A DNA stretch of 64,000 nt from Cyclobacteriaceae bacterium (GTDB taxonomy: Bacteria; Bacteroidota; Bacteroidia; Cytophagales; Cyclobacteriaceae). Made by a program: the position numbers and the translations under genes. The stretch is from positions 1 to 64,000 of the forward strand of contig JAHCHY010000020.1 in the NCBI GenBank assembly GCA_026129485.1, given 5' to 3'. Shown one piece after another: positions 43,696 to 52,191 of the stretch (position 1 is the first letter of the stretch; every line of letters begins with the position of its first letter). Below the pieces are notes generated by a model that saw only the letters and a list, made by a program, of their open reading frames with translations, did not search any database and had not been told where the DNA came from.

Positions 43696-44472
43696 TTATG
43701 GATTGGTTAAAGCGTTCACAAACGTGCGGATATCAGCATCCCGGTCATCGCTCTTACTTAATTGCTGAATAAACGAGCTGCCTACAATGACTCCTGCACC
43801 GTAAGCACAGGCCTGGGCATACGTGGTGTAATTGGAAATCCCGAAACCAATCAGGAACGGATTTTTAAGCTTGTAAGATTTCAGTCTTTTGAAATACGTA
43901 AGCTGCTCATCCGTAAATTCACCTTTGGCTCCCGTTGTGCTGGATGCCGATACGGCATAGATAAAACCTGTGCTGAGGCTGTCAATTTTTTTTATTCTCT
44001 CCTCGCTTGTAGTGGGCGAGATTAAAAACGAAACACCCAGGTTAAGCGAATCCGTAAGGCCCCGGTACTGCTCAAATTCATCCAAAGGCAGGTCGGGCAG
44101 AATCAAACCATCCACACCTGCACGGGCTGCATCCTGAAAGAATTTCTCAAAGCCGTATTGCATAACCGGGTTTAAATAGCCCATTAATATGATCGGCAGC
44201 TCAATTTTTTTTCGGATAGCAGCCACTTGCTTCAGCAACAAGACTACTGTCATGCCATTGTCCAATGCCTGCTTATTGCTGGCCTGAATGGTTGGCCCGT
44301 CCGCTACCGGGTCGGAAAACGGAATCCCGATCTCAATCATATCTGCACCGGCTTCCTCAAGCGCTACCGCTATGGATTCCGTGTCTTCCAATCCTGGAAA
44401 CCCGGCTGTATAAAAAACAGAAAGCACAGGCTTGCGGGCGTTCGACAGTAAATCGGTAATTCTATTCTTCAT
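43696..44472 (-). CDS. trpA: Tryptophan synthase alpha subunit
   Basis: 258 residues. It cleaves indole-3-glycerol phosphate to indole and glyceraldehyde 3-phosphate. The catalytic Glu is in ADMIEIGIPFSDP (about residues 39-51) and the Asp in GVDGLILPDLPLDE; the phosphate-binding GFGIS and GVIVGSSF segments are intact. Last gene of the operon, 15 nt after trpB. The protein pairs with TrpB in a tunnelled complex. Confidence 0.97.
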   Translation of the reverse strand: MKNRITDLLSNARKPVLSVFYTAGFPGLEDTESIAVALEEAGADMIEIGIPFSDPVADGPTIQASNKQALDNGMTVVLLLKQVAAIRKKIELPIILMGYLNPVMQYGFEKFFQDAARAGVDGLILPDLPLDEFEQYRGLTDSLNLGVSFLISPTTSEERIKKIDSLSTGFIYAVSASSTTGAKGEFTDEQLTYFKRLKSYKLKNPFLIGFGISNYTTYAQACAYGAGVIVGSSFIQQLSKSDDRDADIRTFVNALTNP

Positions 44473-44487: not shown

Positions 44488-45669
44488 TCAATATTTTCCC
44501 CAGCGGATGTACGTTTCCAGATCTTTATCTCCCCTGCCCGACAGGTTAATAACCACCACATCTTCTTCCGTAAGTTCTAATTTTGAAAGCGCTGCAATTG
44601 CATGTGCTGATTCAATTGCCGGAATGATCCCTTCGGTGCGTGCCAGCTCAATGCCGGCATGCATGGCTTCATCATCGGTTGCATTTACAAACTGTACCCT
44701 GCCCGTGTCAAACAGGTGCGCATGTAATGGCCCGATACCCGGGTAATCCAGCCCGGCAGAAATAGAATACGGCTCAATCACCTGGCCATCGTGCGTTTGC
44801 ATGAGTAATGTTTTGCTGCCATGCAACACACCGGGTTTACCCAATGCTGTGGTAGCGGCAGACTCACCGCTATCCACTCCCTTACCGGCAGCTTCCACGC
44901 CTATCAACGCTACATGCTCTTCATCGAGGTAATGATAAAATGCTCCTGCTGCATTGCTGCCACCGCCCACGCAGGCCACCACATAGTCGGGGTTGGGTTG
45001 CCCGATTTCTGATACGAGCTGTTTTCTGATCTCTTCACTGATAACGGATTGAAACAACGTAACCATGTGCGGATAAGGATGCGGCCCAACCACCGAACCA
45101 ATGATATAATGTGTATCTGCCGGGTGATTGATCCAATGCCGCATCGCTTCATTGGTGGCATCCTTCAGTGTCATGTTACCGGAAAGGGCGGGCACCACCT
45201 GCGCACCCAATATACGCATGCGCTCCACATTAGGGCGTTGACGCTCCATATCGAGCTTACCCATGTACACCACACATTCCATCCCCATCAAGGCGCACAC
45301 GGTAGCCGTTGCTACTCCATGCTGTCCGGCTCCTGTTTCGGCAATAATTTTCTGTTTACCTAATCGCCTGGCTAACAAAATCTGGCCAATCGTATTGTTG
45401 ATCTTATGCGCACCGGTATGGCAAAGGTCTTCGCGTTTCAGGTAAATTTTTGCCTTGTACTTTTCCGAGAGCCGCGCAGCATGGTAAAGTGACGTGGGGC
45501 GCCCTACATAGTTGCGCAGCAAATCTGTAAACTCCTTTTGAAAAACAGGTTCCCGGATAATTTCGAGGTATTGCATTCGCAATTCTTCTACATTCGGATA
45601 TAACATTTCCGGAATATAGGCTCCACCAAAATTCCCGTAATAGCCGCGTTCATCAACTTCGTATTTCAT
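44488..45669 (-). CDS. trpB: Tryptophan synthase beta subunit
   Basis: 393 residues, TrpB1 type. The PLP lysine is in HTGAHKINN (about residues 82-90); the phosphate-binding GGGSNA and the AETGAGQHG loop are present. It joins indole and serine to tryptophan. It is 12 nt after trpF and 15 nt before trpA. Full length, no anomalies. Confidence 0.97.
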
Positions 45670-45681
45670 AGCTTACTCCAA

Positions 45682-46326
45682 TTATATATTTAACCTGGAT
45701 ACTGATTCGATAAGATCATTTAATTTCTTCACATCCTTTAACCCGGGCTCTGTTTCCACACCGCTGTTCATATCGATGGCATGTAACTGTGGGTGTTTAA
45801 GCCCGCGCAAATCGTTCAGGCTTTGAACAGAGATACCGCCACTCAGAAAAAAAGGAACTACTCCCGTGTATTGTTGCAGCAAAGACCAGTCAAACTGCAC
45901 CGCATTGCCGCCATAATGCTTTCCTTTTGTATCAAACAGAAAAAAATCAGACGATTGCCGGTACGCTTCGGTAACCGAAAAATTAAACTGCTCGTCCACC
46001 CGAAAAACCTTTATCGTTTTTACACCTTCAGCCTTCAGGTTTTGCACAACCGATACCGGCTCATCGCCATGAAGCTGAACAAAATCCAGCCGGTGCTTAT
46101 GAACCATCCTGAGCATCTTACCGGGTGCTGCATTCACAAAAACCCCTACCCGTTTTACGCCTGCCGGAAAATCATCGGGGATGAAAAAATCCTTACCCAC
46201 AAACCTCGGTGAACCTTCGTAAAATATAAACCCCATATAATCGGGAGCCAGCCGTGCAACCTCCTGCATATTGGCGGCATGTCGCATTCCACAGACTTTC
46301 CATCGTACGGAGCTCAAGTGATTCAT
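45682..46326 (-). CDS. trpF: Phosphoribosylanthranilate isomerase
   Basis: 214 residues. The catalytic Cys is in KVCGM (10-14), the Asp in LLQQYTGVVPFFLSGG context and DMNSGVE near the C-terminus. It converts N-(5-phosphoribosyl)anthranilate to CdRP. It is separate from trpC, not fused as in enteric bacteria. Its ATG overlaps the trpC stop by 4 nt. Confidence 0.93.
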   Translation of the reverse strand: MNHLSSVRWKVCGMRHAANMQEVARLAPDYMGFIFYEGSPRFVGKDFFIPDDFPAGVKRVGVFVNAAPGKMLRMVHKHRLDFVQLHGDEPVSVVQNLKAEGVKTIKVFRVDEQFNFSVTEAYRQSSDFFLFDTKGKHYGGNAVQFDWSLLQQYTGVVPFFLSGGISVQSLNDLRGLKHPQLHAIDMNSGVETEPGLKDVKKLNDLIESVSRLNI

Positions 46327-47129
46327 CTCGTCTGCTGTTCCAGTTTTTTTAATTCAACTATAAAATCATGGCAAGCCAGCTCAGGCTCACTGTGCTGCAT
46401 AAAATTCTGTCCCATTAAAAAGCCCCGGTAATCATACCGCTTTAATTCCATAATGGTTTTCGGATTCTCAATGCCACTCTCCGATACTTTAACAAAATGA
46501 TCGGGGATAAACGCTGCCAGCTCGTTTGACAGGTTTACATCGGTAACAAATGTTTTCAGGTTCCGGTTGTTAACCCCGACCAGGTCAGCGCCCGCCTCCA
46601 AGTTTGCTTCCAGCTCTTCGCGGTTGTGCACTTCCAGCAATACTTCCAGACCCAGCGTGTGCGCTGCTGCCGCCAGTTGTTTCAGCTTTGCGGGTTTAAG
46701 CGCGGCAGCTATCAACAAAATCGCATCGGCACCAATCGATTTGGCTTCTATCACCTGGTATTCATCTACCGTAAAATCCTTGCGAAGAATCGGGCAGGCA
46801 TTCAGGCTTCGGGCTGCAATCAAATCATCATCGCTTCCGCCAAAATAGTTCAAATCGGTAAGCACCGAAATAGCCGATGCACCCGCCTGTTCATACCCTA
46901 CGGAAATCCGCTCTACCGAAACATTCGCATTAATCACTCCTTTGGATGGCGACTTTCTTTTAATCTCGGCAATGATACCCGACCGGTCAGGCCGTGTTAC
47001 AAAATCCTTCAGCGAAAAAACAGAACGTTCAAAATACGGGCGCTTCTCTAATTGCGCTACCGGTCGCTGTGCTTTTCGCGCTGCAACTTCCCTGTACTTA
47101 TAAGCAATTATCTCCTGCAGAATATCCAT
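46323..47129 (-). CDS. trpC: Indole-3-glycerol phosphate synthase
   Basis: 268 residues from the ATG at 47129. A longer frame up to 47234 exists but would overlap trpD by 105 nt. The chosen ATG forms a TAATG overlap with the trpD stop, the usual coupling in trp operons, and starts MDILQEIIAYK, as family members do. Motifs: IAEIKRKSPSKG (59-70), ILRKDF, EVHNREEL, GVNNRNL and VSESGI. It closes the indole ring from CdRP. Confidence 0.95.
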   Translation of the reverse strand: MDILQEIIAYKYREVAARKAQRPVAQLEKRPYFERSVFSLKDFVTRPDRSGIIAEIKRKSPSKGVINANVSVERISVGYEQAGASAISVLTDLNYFGGSDDDLIAARSLNACPILRKDFTVDEYQVIEAKSIGADAILLIAAALKPAKLKQLAAAAHTLGLEVLLEVHNREELEANLEAGADLVGVNNRNLKTFVTDVNLSNELAAFIPDHFVKVSESGIENPKTIMELKRYDYRGFLMGQNFMQHSEPELACHDFIVELKKLEQQTR

Positions 47130-48115
47130 TACTTTTCCATTAAGTTTGTAAACGCTTTTAATGCCTTGCCGGATTTCAGCGCATCTGTAGCACGGGCTAC
47201 CGCATGGGGTAATCCTCCTTTTACATCGGCACAATATAAAGCCATAGCCGCATTGGCAATTACGGCCGATTGCTGTGCCTCTGTAGCTTTATTCTCCAGC
47301 ACATTCATAAAAATACGGGCAGACTCTTCAACGGTCGCTCCGCCTTTTATCTCCTCGTATTTCACTTTCGGCAAGCCCATATCAGCCGGGTTTCCAAGAC
47401 GTTCGCCACCGTTATAAAAATATTTAAACGAACCGGTAAGCGATACTTCATCATAGCCATCCAACGAATGGACAATCAAAAAATCTTTTCCGCTTTGCTG
47501 ATACAGGTAACCATACTGCCGGGCCAGCTCTAAGCTGAATACGCCCACCAGCTGGCGCGTGGGAAAAGCCGGGTTAACCATTGGCCCCAGCATATTGAAA
47601 AAAGTTTTCACGCCAAGCTCTTTCCGGATAGGCGCAACATTTTTCATAGCCGGGTGAAACAAGGGCGCATGCATAAAGCAAATGTTGCTTCGGTCAAGGC
47701 TGCGTTTAAGCTCATCGTGATCATTGGTGAATTGGTAGCCAAAGTACTCTAACAGGTTAGAGGAACCACATGCCGATGAAACACCGTAGTTACCATGCTT
47801 GGCTACAGGCTGGCCTGCGGCTGCTACTACAAAAGATGATAGCGTGGAAAGATTAATCGTATTTTTTCCATCGCCTCCTGTTCCACACACATCCATCACC
47901 GGCTGGTCGAACCGTACCGGAACACAAAGCTCAAGCATCGCATCGCGAAAGCCCTGAAGCTCGTTTACCGTTATGCTGCGCATCATATACACCGTCATGA
48001 ATGCGGCCGTCTGGCTCAAATTAAATTTTCCACGGGCCAGCTCAACCAAAACGCGGTGAGCGGTTTCTTTGGTGAGGCTGCGGTGTTCGATCAGCTCTGT
48101 TAAAATCTCTTTCAT
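47129..48115 (-). CDS. trpD: Anthranilate phosphoribosyltransferase
   Basis: 328 residues. DVCGTGGDGKNTINLST (about 75-91) is the PRPP-binding signature, followed by KHGNYGVSSACGSSN. It transfers phosphoribose to anthranilate. It is not fused to TrpG. It starts 6 nt after the trpG stop, and its own stop overlaps the trpC start by one base. Confidence 0.96.
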   Translation of the reverse strand: MKEILTELIEHRSLTKETAHRVLVELARGKFNLSQTAAFMTVYMMRSITVNELQGFRDAMLELCVPVRFDQPVMDVCGTGGDGKNTINLSTLSSFVVAAAGQPVAKHGNYGVSSACGSSNLLEYFGYQFTNDHDELKRSLDRSNICFMHAPLFHPAMKNVAPIRKELGVKTFFNMLGPMVNPAFPTRQLVGVFSLELARQYGYLYQQSGKDFLIVHSLDGYDEVSLTGSFKYFYNGGERLGNPADMGLPKVKYEEIKGGATVEESARIFMNVLENKATEAQQSAVIANAAMALYCADVKGGLPHAVARATDALKSGKALKAFTNLMEK

Positions 48116-48121
48116 ACAGGT

Positions 48122-48694
48122 TTATCGGTTATAATTTAACCAGTTCTCAATCATGCGGGGGCCTTCCGGTGTCATGATGGACTCCGGGTGAAACTGCAGG
48201 CCTTTCACATCATATTCAGCATGACGCAATCCCATAATCAACCCGGCCTCATTACGTGCCGTTACATGCAGCTCACCATTAATAGATTCCGGCACCACGG
48301 CCCACGAGTGATAATGCGTGGCCTCAAACTTATCCGAAACACCTTTGAATAAATATTCGGCATCATCTTCAATTGCGCTTATGGAAGTTACCCCATGCAA
48401 TACCTGCGGAATATTAAACAGGGATGCGCCATACACTTCAGCTATTCCCTGGTGCCCCAGGCAAATACCCAGAATACTTTTGGATGGTCCATAATTTTTG
48501 ATGAGTGCTTTCATAATGCCGGCTTCATCCGGGATGCCCGGCCCCGGAGAGAGTAATATCTTATCGTAGGCAGCTACCGCCTCCACACTTATTTTATCGT
48601 TGCGATACACATCCGGGGAATACCCCAGCACACGAATGATGTGTACCAGGTTGTAGGTGAATGAATCGTAATTATCGAGTACCAGTATCTTCAT
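48122..48694 (-). CDS. trpG: Anthranilate synthase glutaminase component
   Basis: 190 residues. Class I glutamine amidotransferase with Cys78 in LGICLGHQG, the oxyanion segment LLSPGPGIP (48-56) and LQFHPES near the C-terminus (catalytic His-Glu). It supplies ammonia from glutamine to TrpE. Although PabA has the same fold, its location between trpE and trpD makes TrpG the primary call; shared use with PabB is possible. Confidence 0.95.
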   Translation of the reverse strand: MKILVLDNYDSFTYNLVHIIRVLGYSPDVYRNDKISVEAVAAYDKILLSPGPGIPDEAGIMKALIKNYGPSKSILGICLGHQGIAEVYGASLFNIPQVLHGVTSISAIEDDAEYLFKGVSDKFEATHYHSWAVVPESINGELHVTARNEAGLIMGLRHAEYDVKGLQFHPESIMTPEGPRMIENWLNYNR

Positions 48695-48701
48695 ATAGCT
48701 T

Positions 48702-50093
48702 CTAAATTTTTTCCGCCAGCAGCACCGCTTTGCGCAATGCCTCCAGCTTATTGTTTACTTCCTGCAATTCACTTTCCGCTTTGGATTTTGACACGACCCC
48801 CGCACCGGCCTGGTAAATAAGTTGATTATCCTTGCTTAAAAATGTGCGGATCATAATAGCATGGTTAAAGGAATTATCGAACCCGATAAAGCCGATAGCC
48901 CCGCCATAAAAGCCCCGGTTTATGTTTTCATATTGATCAATCAGCTTCATGGCCATGTGCTTGGGCGCGCCTGAAAGTGTTCCTGCCGGAAACGTATCGG
49001 CAGCCACCTGCACCACTGAGGTGCCGGAACGCAACGTACCCGTAACCTTAGACACTAAGTGAATCACATGCGAGTAGTATTGAATCTCTTTGAATACTTC
49101 CACGTGTACGGATGCTGCATTCCGGCTCATGTCATTACGGGCCAGGTCAACCAGCATGGTATGCTCGGCATTTTCTTTTTCATCGGCCGAAAGTCGCTCA
49201 GCCAATTGTGCATCTTCCTGGTCATTACCCGATCTGCGAAACGTTCCTGCAATCGGGTAAATGTGCGCCTTACCATTTCTGATCTGAATCTGCGCTTCGG
49301 GTGAAGATCCAAACAATTTGAAATTACCATAATCAAAATAGAACAGGTAGGGAGATGGATTAATAGACCTTAGTGCACGATATACATTAAATTCATCACC
49401 TTGAAAACCTGTAACAAATCTCCGTGAAAGCACGATCTGAAACACATCGCCCCTGAAGCAATGTTGCTTACCCCGGTTAATGATCTCCAGGAACTCTTCA
49501 TCCGAATAATTGGACTGTTCCTGCCGGGTACGGTTAAACTGAAACGTGGTTACACGGTTATTATTGATCAGTTGCTCCAACCTTGGCAACGTGCTGGCTG
49601 TATGCTCACCTTCGGGCTGATGTTCGAATAAAGTCATCTCGTTATGAAAATGATCCACTACAATTACATACCGGTAAAGCGAATACATCATATCGGGAAT
49701 TTCCGGCCCGGTTTGTTGCAGCGTTAAGTCCTCGAAATAACGCACGGCATCGTAAGCCATGTAGCCAAACAAGCCGGCATGCGGATAGCGCGTGGGAACC
49801 ACTTCTACCCGGAAGGAATTTTTAAACGTTTCAAAAAGCGAAACCAGCTCACCGGGCATGAAGCTAACGGTGCGTGCTTCCGTATCCGGCAAGGTAATTT
49901 CCGCCTTTCCTCCAGCCACTTTAAATATGGCAAGGGGTTCGCAACAAATAAACGACAAGCTGTTTTCATGACCGTGATAGTCGGAGCTCTCCAACAAAAT
50001 GCTGGCTGCAAAAACATCCCGAAGCTTCAGGTAAATGTTTACCGGTGTAATCGTGTCGGCCAGCAACTGACGGGTATAGGTTTTAAAATTCAT
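48702..50093 (-). CDS. trpE: Anthranilate synthase component I
   Basis: 463 residues from the ATG at 50093. An upstream ATG at 50153 lies within the attenuator leader and is not convincing, because the added residues are encoded by the terminator hairpin. The N-terminal LLESSDYHG carries the LLES motif that binds tryptophan for feedback inhibition. Chorismate-binding blocks include GSSPEAQ, PIAGTFRR and TLSGAPKHMAM. First structural gene of the operon, controlled by the leader peptide and terminator just upstream. Confidence 0.95.
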   Translation of the reverse strand: MNFKTYTRQLLADTITPVNIYLKLRDVFAASILLESSDYHGHENSLSFICCEPLAIFKVAGGKAEITLPDTEARTVSFMPGELVSLFETFKNSFRVEVVPTRYPHAGLFGYMAYDAVRYFEDLTLQQTGPEIPDMMYSLYRYVIVVDHFHNEMTLFEHQPEGEHTASTLPRLEQLINNNRVTTFQFNRTRQEQSNYSDEEFLEIINRGKQHCFRGDVFQIVLSRRFVTGFQGDEFNVYRALRSINPSPYLFYFDYGNFKLFGSSPEAQIQIRNGKAHIYPIAGTFRRSGNDQEDAQLAERLSADEKENAEHTMLVDLARNDMSRNAASVHVEVFKEIQYYSHVIHLVSKVTGTLRSGTSVVQVAADTFPAGTLSGAPKHMAMKLIDQYENINRGFYGGAIGFIGFDNSFNHAIMIRTFLSKDNQLIYQAGAGVVSKSKAESELQEVNNKLEALRKAVLLAEKI

Positions 50094-50108
50094 TTTCGAA
50101 ACAGGTTT

Positions 50109-50175
50109 AAAATAAGAAGGCCCACTGTGAACAGCGGGCCTTCGGCATATCATTTTACATAGCAGGGCTGCTCAC
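50109..50175 (-). promoter_or_regulatory. trp attenuator: terminator and competing antiterminator
   Basis: On the minus strand the terminator hairpin is AAGGCCC-G-CTGT-TC-ACAG-T-GGGCCTT (50117-50142), followed by CTTATTTT. The segment GTGAGCAGC (50167-50175), which contains the leader-peptide stop codon, is complementary to GCTGTTCAC (50127-50135) inside the terminator, with 8 Watson-Crick pairs and one G-U. A ribosome stalled on the Trp codons leaves that segment free to form the antiterminator. A ribosome at the stop codon covers it, so the terminator can form. This is classic attenuation logic. Confidence 0.88.
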
Positions 50176-50228
50176 CAATCGAATTTTGATTTGTGCCACC
50201 ACCATGCAGTATGTACAAGCTGACTCAT
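50172..50228 (-). CDS. trpL: trp operon leader peptide
   Basis: An 18-residue peptide MSQLVHTAWWWHKSKFDW, with three consecutive Trp codons (TGG) and a fourth just before the TGA. A Trp density of 4 in 18 in a short ORF placed right before the trpE terminator is diagnostic of a regulatory leader. Its ATG overlaps the stop of the THX gene as TAATG, so ribosomes ending THX can reinitiate here. It begins 135 nt before the trpE ATG. It acts in cis by ribosome position; the peptide itself probably has no function. Confidence 0.9.
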   Translation of the reverse strand: MSQLVHTAWWWHKSKFDW

Positions 50229-50401
50229 TATTCTGCTTTCTTACGGCTTGTCTTCTTGGGTTTTGCTTCTACGGCTGCTACCGTAGTCTTCGTTGAAGCA
50301 ACACGCTTCAGGCGAGCCTTGATTTTCTTACGGTTACGGGTAACCCCGAACGAACCTGTTGTTCGTTTACCTTTCCTGGATTTTTTATCTCCTCTTCCCA
50401 T
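50228..50401 (-). CDS. 30S ribosomal protein THX
   Basis: 57 residues, very basic. It begins MGRGDKKSRKGKRTTGSFG, matching the THX family signature (MGKGDKKSxRGK...GxxG), followed by a Lys/Arg-rich tail ending KKTSRKKAE that is longer than the Thermus peptide. THX sits in the 30S head and stabilises 16S rRNA. A good promoter lies 23 nt upstream. Its stop shares a base with the trp leader ATG and no promoter box is seen inside the gene, so it looks like the first cistron of the trp operon. Confidence 0.87.
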   Translation of the reverse strand: MGRGDKKSRKGKRTTGSFGVTRNRKKIKARLKRVASTKTTVAAVEAKPKKTSRKKAE

Positions 50402-50423
50402 TAAAAATTGATGTTTTGTGCGG

Positions 50424-50454
50424 CAAGTATAGTAAAGGGTTCTTTTACCACAAA
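50424..50454 (-). promoter_or_regulatory. Promoter for thx-trpL-trpEGDCFBA
   Basis: On the minus strand, TTTG (50451-50454), 19 nt, then TATACTTG (50424-50431). This fits the Bacteroidota -33/-7 consensus (TTTG, TAnnTTTG) with one mismatch. Transcription would start near 50417, about 16 nt before the THX ATG. The rest of 50402-50543 contains the 19-nt repeat word at 50494-50512 and no gene. Confidence 0.6.
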
Positions 50455-50543
50455 ATTTTCCAAACGCTTTCTCACCAAAATCAGCTTCAAATCGGCTTCG
50501 ACAAGCTCAGCCCGACATTCGAAGATGGTTTTTAGAGATGTCC

Positions 50544-51086
50544 TTAAAGTAACTGATGCAACGGATAGGTAAACAAAACACAATCTTTCGACCGGTTATC
50601 CTGGTTGGGGAATTGCCACCAGTCCTTTACTATGGCTTCAACCACAAATCCGCATTTCTCCAGCACGCGGGCCGAGGCATGGTTCTCCGCATCTATAAAC
50701 GAACCGATCTTGTAAACGGGCTGCTTCAATAAAAGCTGAACCAAAGCCCGTGTGGCTTCCGTAGCATATCCTTTGCCCCAATGCAGCGGCCCGAACACAT
50801 AGCCCACCTGAATTTTACCGGCATCATTCAGAAATCCGCAAGCCCCTGTTAACCGGTTGGCGCCTTTCAACCTTACCGCGAATGAAAAATCCGTGCCCTG
50901 CTCCCACGCATGGCGGGCATACAACAGGAACGCACGTGTATCCTTTAATGATTGATGCACGGGCCAGCTTACAAAACGGGTGCTTTCGGGCTTGCTGGCA
51001 TATGTATAGAAAATTTCTTCGGCATCGGCAAGCTGCAGCCTCGTTAAAATCAACCGCGGGGTTTCAACACGTTCAGGAATAAGCAT
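50544..51086 (-). CDS. GNAT-family acetyltransferase (RimJ/RimL-like)
   Basis: 180 residues. It begins with the typical ETPRLILTRL strand (7-16) and has the acetyl-CoA loop in VFGPLHWGKGYATEATRAL (motif A, near 97-115) and NHASARVLEKCGF (motif B). The closest functional group is the ribosomal-protein or small-molecule N-acetyltransferases of Acetyltransf_3 type. It is divergent from the small gene at 51099. The substrate is unknown. Confidence 0.88.
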   Translation of the reverse strand: MLIPERVETPRLILTRLQLADAEEIFYTYASKPESTRFVSWPVHQSLKDTRAFLLYARHAWEQGTDFSFAVRLKGANRLTGACGFLNDAGKIQVGYVFGPLHWGKGYATEATRALVQLLLKQPVYKIGSFIDAENHASARVLEKCGFVVEAIVKDWWQFPNQDNRSKDCVLFTYPLHQLL

Positions 51087-51098
51087 ACATTTACCTTA

Positions 51099-51338
51099 AT
51101 GGCGAAAAGCAACAATATCGTACATCAATATTTCAAAAAAGAAATACCCGATGGTAAAATTCTGTTACGGGTTAACCCGATACAGCTTAAGGGAACCGAA
51201 ATTTGGGTAAGCAACAAAGGTGTTGAAATGCGAAACCTCGATTTTGATGCCGCTATTTTTGAAGACCTGGTGGCTGATGATTTTACAGAAGTCAACCCGA
51301 TGGAATTCAACCTGTACCTTTCGGGATTGATTGAATAA
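51099..51338 (+). CDS. Small conserved-looking protein, unknown function
   Basis: 79 residues, not recognised. It is acidic at the C-terminus and starts with a basic MAKSNNIVHQYFKKE. The body predicts mixed beta/alpha with no signal, helix or metal motif. Codon use and its clean ATG, 12 nt from the divergent GNAT start, suggest a real gene. It ends just upstream of the SRP RNA promoter. Confidence 0.6.
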   Translation: MAKSNNIVHQYFKKEIPDGKILLRVNPIQLKGTEIWVSNKGVEMRNLDFDAAIFEDLVADDFTEVNPMEFNLYLSGLIE

Positions 51339-51364
51339 GGCTGTAGTTATGTCGTGTATTTTAT

Positions 51365-51372
51365 TAGTTTTG
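51365..51372 (+). promoter_or_regulatory. -7 promoter box for SRP RNA
   Basis: TAGTTTTG is an exact TAnnTTTG match, 4 nt before the predicted RNA 5' end. No clear -33 TTTG box was found at the right distance. Confidence 0.5.
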
Positions 51373-51376
51373 CACC

Positions 51377-51469
51377 GGCAAATCGGCACGACCAGCTCCT
51401 GCTGAACTCCCCCAGGGCCGGAAGGCAGCAAGGGTAGGTGGTTGTAGCGGTGCGATGTTCGGTTTGCCA
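51377..51469 (+). ncRNA. ffs: Signal recognition particle RNA (4.5S, small bacterial type)
   Basis: The core hairpin has the universal Ffh-binding loops: CCCAGGGCCGGAAGGCAGCA with GGAA tetraloop, and the flanking symmetric loop AGCAAGGGTAG. The outer ends GGCAAA and TTTGCC pair, and a T6 run directly after acts as the terminator. About 93 nt, standard for the Alu-less bacterial form. It binds Ffh for co-translational membrane targeting. Confidence 0.94.
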
Positions 51470-51534
51470 CTTTTTTAAATCCTGTGGAGTTTTCCTGTTT
51501 CCACTAACTTTAGGTCATCAATTCAATATCAATC

Positions 51535-52191
51535 ATGAAATTCTTCATCGACACAGCCAATCTAAACGAAATAAAAGAAGCCTATGATCTGGGCGTACTG
51601 GATGGTGTAACCACCAACCCATCGCTTATGGCGAAAGAAGGCATTGCAGGCCACGAAAAAGTTAAGGCTCACTACAAAGCCATCTGCAACATTGTGGATA
51701 ACAATGTAAGCGCTGAAGTAATCGCTACCGACTTTGAAGGCATTATCAAAGAAGGAAAGGAACTGGCCAAAATTGATGACAAGATTGTGGTGAAGGTACC
51801 TATGATAAAAGATGGCATTAAAGCCATTAAGAAATTTTCGAGCGAAGGCATTCGCACCAACTGTACGCTGGTATTTTCACCGGGGCAGGCTATCCTGGCA
51901 GCCAAGGCGGGCGCAAGCTACCTCTCTCCTTTTATTGGCCGGTTAGACGATATTTCGCAAGACGGCCTGGATTTTATTGCCCAGGTAAGGTTGATTTACG
52001 ACAATTACGGATTTGGTACGGAAATTCTTGCCGCCAGTGTGCGTCATTCCATGCACCTGATCAAGTGTGCCGAAATCGGGGCCGATGTAGTTACCTGTCC
52101 GCTTAACGTGATTATCGGCTTACTCAATCATCCGCTAACTGATTCAGGGTTAGCTAAATTTTTAGCTGATCATAAGAAGGCTAACTCATAA
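51535..52191 (+). CDS. fsa: Transaldolase-like fructose-6-phosphate aldolase
   Basis: 218 residues, the short transaldolase (TalC/Fsa) subfamily. [13 protein letters not shown] at the start, VTTNPSLM (25-32), Schiff-base Lys87 in IVVKVPM, and FIGRLDDI are diagnostic. It transfers dihydroxyacetone units or cleaves fructose 6-phosphate. True Fsa and transaldolase activities cannot be separated by eye. Single gene, followed by an AT-rich palindrome. Confidence 0.9.

Follow-up and report, generated by a model that had tools for sequence, protein, structure and literature searches.

In Escherichia coli, the leader peptide gene trpL is the first cistron of its operon and follows the promoter directly. 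The E. coli leader pheM follows rplT in the same operon and precedes pheST. Bacteroidota hardly use Shine-Dalgarno sites, and amino-acid attenuators in Bacteroidetes have reportedly been predicted by Vitreschak and colleagues (2004). Within this phylum, the Bacteroid-trp RNA (Rfam RF01692) is presented in the available text of Weinberg 2010 (PMC2864571) as the Trp leader of Bacteroidota trp operons, and further trp leaders are documented in the accessible literature on Flavobacterium psychrophilum. The first-pass annotation of the locus studied here called such leaders less often documented in this phylum than in Proteobacteria, which needs qualifying, as both RF01692 and the F. psychrophilum work document them there. 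The trp-attenuator kind is already known in Bacteroidota, and its members described here escape the Rfam models. Ribosome reinitiation around leader genes and the effects of stalling are treated in the available part of Korolev 2016 (PMC4833913). A literature search of open-licence papers returned no description of a linkage of thx with trpE or anthranilate synthase, and the accessible portions of PMC2965389 and PMC7366714 contain nothing on trp.

We analyzed a window of 64,000 nt (the whole stretch, positions 1 to 64,000 of contig JAHCHY010000020.1, assembly GCA_026129485.1) from a Cyclobacteriaceae bacterium whose genome totals 4.08 Mb over 40 contigs and is 97.96% complete. Among the best 80 of 585 named TrpE relatives, the top places go to Cyclobacteriaceae/Cytophagales (Ohtaekwangia, Chryseolinea, Dawidia, Chryseotalea, and metagenome-assembled genomes related to them). 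The gene order on the minus strand is thx, trpL, trpE, trpG, trpD, trpC, trpF, trpB, trpA, with the following features:

50424-50453, minus strand: predicted promoter of sigma-A type for the thx-trpL-trp unit, TTG-N19-TATACTTG, with the -7 box ending 22 nt 5' of the thx ATG
50228-50401, minus strand: thx, 30S ribosomal protein bTHX, 57 amino acids (NCBIfam TIGR04560, 36.7 bits against a 26-bit cut-off)
50172-50228, minus strand: trpL, leader peptide MSQLVHTAWWWHKSKFDW, 18 codons, stop TGA at 50172-50174 (from the sequence; kept in relatives)
50196-50204, minus strand: regulatory Trp codons 9-11, TGGTGGTGG (from the sequence)
50158-50206, minus strand: protector (1:2) hairpin, formed between the Trp-codon region and a segment 3' of the leader stop (from folding)
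50167-50175, minus strand: antiterminator strand 2, GUGAGCAGC, spanning the leader stop codon (from the sequence and pairing tests)
50127-50135, minus strand: antiterminator strand 3, GCUGUUCAC, running from the end of the terminator 5' arm through the loop to the first base of the 3' arm
50106-50143, minus strand: intrinsic terminator (-22.3 kcal/mol), with its hairpin at 50116-50143 and a U-rich tract at 50106-50115
48702-50093, minus strand: trpE, encoding anthranilate synthase component I and heading the structural genes (top NCBIfam hit trpE_most at 413 bits, short of that model's 517.7 cut-off)
48122-48694, minus strand: trpG (NCBIfam)
47129-48115, minus strand: trpD (NCBIfam)
46323-47132, minus strand: trpC (NCBIfam)
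45682-46326, minus strand: trpF (NCBIfam)
44488-45669, minus strand: trpB (by eye from the ORF list)
43696-44472, minus strand: trpA (by eye from the ORF list)

The thx gene is the single match to TIGR04560 in its own genome (G000; E up to 0.01). A small signal recognition particle (SRP) RNA (Rfam RF04183, 80.9 bits) lies nearby on the plus strand at 51370-51472.

An 18-residue Trp-rich leader had been claimed in the first-pass annotation, and we recover it on the minus strand with its ATG from 50228 and Trp codons at 50196-50204 and 50175-50177. The leader ATG and the thx stop codon share one base (TAATG); this overlap and the 1:2 hairpin were absent from the earlier description, which did name the thx-trpE interval. 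Its other two structural elements hold as well: the terminator hairpin with a T-rich tail before trpE is found at 50116-50143, followed by UUAUUUU, and the 9-nt complementarity across the leader stop joins GUGAGCAGC at 50167-50175 to GCUGUUCAC at 50127-50135 with one G.U pair. The locus resembles the E. coli trp attenuator (RF00513) in having a short Trp-rich leader, protector, antiterminator, and terminator before trpE, together with a weak match to the full-length model. Unlike that system, however, it carries three adjacent Trp codons plus one beside the stop, and its leader is apparently the second cistron behind thx, without a predicted promoter of its own.

Both covariance models were searched in the window and in 20 loci, and RF01692 additionally in 148 genomes of the family. 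Membership of the window in either Rfam family is rejected: Trp_leader (RF00513) scores 20.3 bits (E = 0.77) against a gathering cut-off of 41 bits, and Bacteroid-trp, with a gathering cut-off of 49 bits, gives no match up to E = 5. Among the 20 loci, Trp_leader reaches at most 31.9 bits, and Bacteroid-trp scores 56.1 bits in L059 (above cut-off) and 48.5 bits in L021 (just under). A likeness to the Bacteroid-trp RNA thus exists in that these two relatives match over their leaders; the window itself, by contrast, is not matched by the model, and the available text of PMC2864571 does not mention a thx linkage. In the 148 family genomes, Bacteroid-trp has no match above cut-off and four at E up to 0.01, under stricter filtering, at the cost of some weak matches. 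A scan of positions 49000-52000 up to E = 5 recovered only the SRP RNA and the sub-threshold Trp_leader, with no T-box, which argues against control of the operon by a Trp-sensing RNA of that kind. T-box and TRAP-type systems do govern trp genes in other phyla, and we nevertheless regard such a site as extremely improbable here.

For a comparison across relatives, 196 loci upstream of trpE were gathered, 90 from an order sample (96 genomes with trpE, six loci being left out, four of them partial) and 106 more from the family (140 genomes with trpE, 26 left out). A Trp-rich ORF starting with ATG (W.?W) lies 5' of trpE in 172/196 loci, versus 10/975 dinucleotide shuffles and 1/195 reverse complements, and the stricter WWW ORF in 136/196 loci, versus 0/975 and 0/195. 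Within the window's own family (f1), 112/115 loci have a W-rich leader before trpE; two of the three misses are a WWW ORF started by TTG (G158) and a WYW ORF starting beyond the 330-nt limit (G148). The script found no W-rich leader in 24/196 loci, and these misses cluster (7/8 loci in f4, 6/7 in f20); the two families may have other regulation or a missed variant of the leader. In a class sample, 19/25 loci contain a W-rich ORF (L298 repeats the order genome G012, and in two loci the sequence is not long enough to show one). Throughout, a locus truncated by a contig end was scored as a miss (L046; in the class sample, L281 and L302).

We also observe serial double W-rich ORFs in eight loci. 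In six genomes of five genera, each leader has its own terminator (L111, L128, L131, L132, L134, and L182; -14.0 to -22.4 kcal/mol), and these are apparently tandem trp attenuators; tandem attenuators are reported for Salmonella mgtCBR.

Folding of the 146-nt region in the window gives z = -4.18, with 0/200 shuffles equally stable; the 87-nt core alone folds less strikingly (z = -2.13, 8/200 shuffles). Terminators of -13.5 kcal/mol or below are present in 164/172 leader loci versus 3/516 shuffles. The window's antiterminator pairing, at -14.2 kcal/mol, is matched by 1/200 shuffles (mean, -8.9). When the segment from the Trp codons to the terminator was paired with the terminator 5' arm, 87/172 loci fell in the best 5% of shuffles and 46/172 in the best 1%, and the other 85/172 show no antiterminator at the 5% level of this simple duplex test. 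The antiterminator strands co-vary across 98 genera, each represented by its first locus: own-locus pairing averages -12.5 kcal/mol versus -9.8 kcal/mol with the arms of other genera, and 0/20,000 permutations reach the observed mean, although locus by locus no more than about 24/98 genera have their own pairing in the top 5% of arms.

These data bear on the idea that the hairpin is a mere thx terminator and the small ORF a chance reading frame. The terminator does stand close behind thx and would alone suffice to end thx transcription. However, a WWW ORF in so many loci and in none of the 975 shuffles is hard to ascribe to chance, leaders with terminators also occur before trpE where thx is absent, and the antiterminator co-varies. 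We reject this explanation on the shuffle controls for leader and terminator, and consider it very improbable. The check on relatives suggested with the first-pass annotation, for a conserved Trp-rich ORF and conserved stems, returned the leader in 112/115 family loci, the terminators, and the co-varying antiterminator strands, which together support the E. coli-type attenuator logic that it had proposed. With a Trp-rich ORF, an intrinsic terminator, an exclusive, co-varying antiterminator, and a protector hairpin all present, ribosome-mediated trp attenuation in kind is strongly supported by sequence comparison.

The linkage to thx was surveyed in the 148 family genomes, of which 86 have THX (TIGR04560), 140 have trpE, and 84 have both, on one contig in 56 of these. 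In 35/84, thx lies directly 5' of trpE on the same strand (with 231 to 726 bp separating the two matches); a further 11 have it 1.8 to 12 kb 5' of trpE, again on the same strand. Outside the family, we observe no thx-trpE adjacency in the 35 order genomes and 27 class genomes with both genes, only 6 and 4 of which have them on one contig. Leader regions from unnamed and named family loci (the latter being L198-L241, from 80 named loci, with one leaderless locus dropped) came to 142 after 13/155 with identical leader regions were removed. Using bins that we set for the gap from thx to the leader nearest trpE (tight, -6 to 20 nt; loose, up to 300 nt), these comprise 44 tight loci (observed gaps, -4 to 18 nt), which are kin and not independent, 18 loose loci (39 to 226 nt), and 80 unlinked loci, including two that are probably linked (L199, with masked bases, and L200, with a broken thx frame). 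The split is imperfect: five loose loci have two serial leaders, the first 20 to 86 nt past thx and, in four of the five, 20 or 37 nt after it. In L200, the thx reading frame is apparently broken with the trp leader intact, which could be a sequencing error.

The tight loci, among them those of the cultivable relatives Ohtaekwangia koreensis (L210) and Chryseotalea sanaruensis (L217), share a common geometry. The Trp cluster begins at codon 9 in 39/44 of them (counted from G in L205 and L206, which read GWW), and the distance from the thx stop to the first Trp codon is 23 to 45 nt, most often 29 to 30 nt. GWW replaces the usual WWW in the leaders of L205, L206, L246, and L254. The protector (1:2) segment has z < -1 in 42/44 tight loci (mean z, -2.56), the window's own being barely better than shuffles (z = -1.05). 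Like the window, 24/44 tight loci use GUGA[AG]CAGC with GCUGUUCAC, and most of the remaining 20, a class that holds every tight locus not matching the pattern (L235 pairs elsewhere), use a GAUCGG-like strand paired with CCGAUC. The flanks of the latter type co-vary, GAAUCGG occurring with CCGAUUC and GGAUCGG with CCGAUCC.

Both types can be found within a single genus, GUGA[AG]CAGC with an 18-codon leader and the GAUCGG type with a leader of 23 to 24 codons (G000 versus G064, G247, and G206 in g1; G188 versus G238 in g143; G196 versus G242 in g151). The aligned stretches suggest that the pairing register may have switched together with a new stop codon.

Promoters were predicted as matches to a matrix built from 59 promoters of unlinked leaders (TTG, a spacer mostly of 18 to 19, and a TAnnTTTG-like box), at a threshold passed by 5% of shuffles. 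The predicted -7 motif fits TAnnTTTG, the sigma-A consensus given for F. psychrophilum in the accessible text. In the window, the promoter before thx scores 12.3 and the best site inside thx -5.2. Across the tight loci, a sigma-A promoter is predicted before thx in 42/44, before the leader in 1/44, and within the thx coding region in 0/44; the loose loci have one before thx in 6/18 and before the leader in 6/18. Unlinked leaders have a predicted promoter of their own within 80 nt in 62/80, but this is the training group, so that the thx-linked results alone are independent of training. By promoter prediction, then, the window does not have the classical trpL layout of a leader as first cistron behind the operon promoter. 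In 60/62 of the unlinked cases the predicted -7 box ends 4 to 19 nt before the leader ATG, which implies that these leaders may have a very short 5' untranslated region or none. A strict promoter pattern tried on 35 linked loci was set aside as too narrow (7/35 before thx and 5/35 within 60 nt of the leader, versus 54/77 for unlinked leaders); its counts took the thx gap of G247 as 202 nt, the actual gap being 4 nt.

A gap of -4 to 18 nt and a promoter predicted before thx, not before the leader, are the grounds on which the ribosomal-protein gene seems to have been absorbed into the trp leader transcript in this Cyclobacteriaceae clade. We consider it fairly likely that the locus is a ribosome-mediated attenuator in which a single transcript, thx-trpL-trpEGDCFBA, carries the leader as its second cistron, with trpL probably translated by ribosomes leaving thx. 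RNA polymerase would start before thx, and a ribosome that makes bTHX would terminate at TAA and re-initiate on the overlapping trpL ATG. When Trp-tRNA is ample, the ribosome at the leader stop would cover strand 2, the 3:4 terminator would form, and the thx-trpL RNA would end there. When Trp-tRNA is scarce, a stall at WWW would mask one side of the protector, strand 2 would pair with strand 3, the terminator could not form, and trpEGDCFBA would be transcribed. An untranslated leader would let 1:2 form and lead to termination. Strand 2 starts 20 nt past the last WWW codon; given the ribosome footprint, a stall at WWW would leave strand 2 free, and a ribosome at the leader stop would cover it. 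Comparison across loci lends support to the leader, Trp codons, terminator, antiterminator covariation, protector hairpin, thx adjacency, and promoter position as putative parts of this mechanism, and we infer cotranscription, reinitiation, and Trp dependence.

Reinitiation in particular appears likely. In an alternative that we think unlikely, though serious, the locus is a Trp attenuator in which the link to thx plays no part in the mechanism, with the leader start recognized by itself and thx a neighbor that shares its promoter. The 80 loci whose leaders stand without thx, 62 of them with a predicted promoter, fit such an independent leader, and gaps of up to 18 nt together with the A-rich stretch that we observe 5' of the leader ATG would allow direct initiation; against it, 44 loci keep the gap within -4 to 18 nt, and 43 of these lack a predicted leader promoter. 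Shine-Dalgarno-like tetramers occur in 2/44 tight leaders, 1/80 unlinked leaders, and 0/44 thx genes; as they are equally rare before unlinked leaders and thx, their absence is uninformative on coupling.

The arrangement that we favor, with trpL read by ribosomes coming from thx, has partial parallels. Like pheM, which the available text of PMC5371410 lists as an attenuator along with a pheM-rplT intergenic site, it has an attenuator leader beside a gene for a ribosomal protein; unlike the window's leader, E. coli pheM serves a Phe-tRNA synthetase and not biosynthesis. In the accessible text of Korolev 2016 (PMC4833913), a leader feeds ribosomes to a downstream gene, whereas in the window the upstream gene would feed the leader. 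The core mechanism is ordinary and its address is unusual.

A further-reaching proposal, which we put forward as doubtful, is that the bTHX cistron serves as a ribosome-loading platform for a leader without its own promoter or ribosome entry, and that Trp starvation also holds back thx termination. If neither a promoter nor independent ribosome entry is left to the leader, the Trp signal would be read only by ribosomes fresh from bTHX, and trp transcription would be tied to the thx promoter. Roughly one ribosome length separates the thx stop from the first Trp codon, so that Trp starvation would hold back termination on thx; if true, 30S-protein output would be linked to Trp-tRNA charging. An effect of the WWW stall on thx is speculation.

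Bacteroid-trp above cut-off in 0/148 family genomes, set against leaders in 112/115 loci, indicates that attenuators are under-annotated here. The simplest reading of the family's loci would be a series from unlinked to adjacent to fused with the leader promoter lost, the order of the steps being assumed. It suggests a stepwise route by which a housekeeping ribosomal-protein gene may become part of the regulatory leader of a biosynthetic operon, and offers a natural series for asking whether reinitiating ribosomes can drive attenuation.
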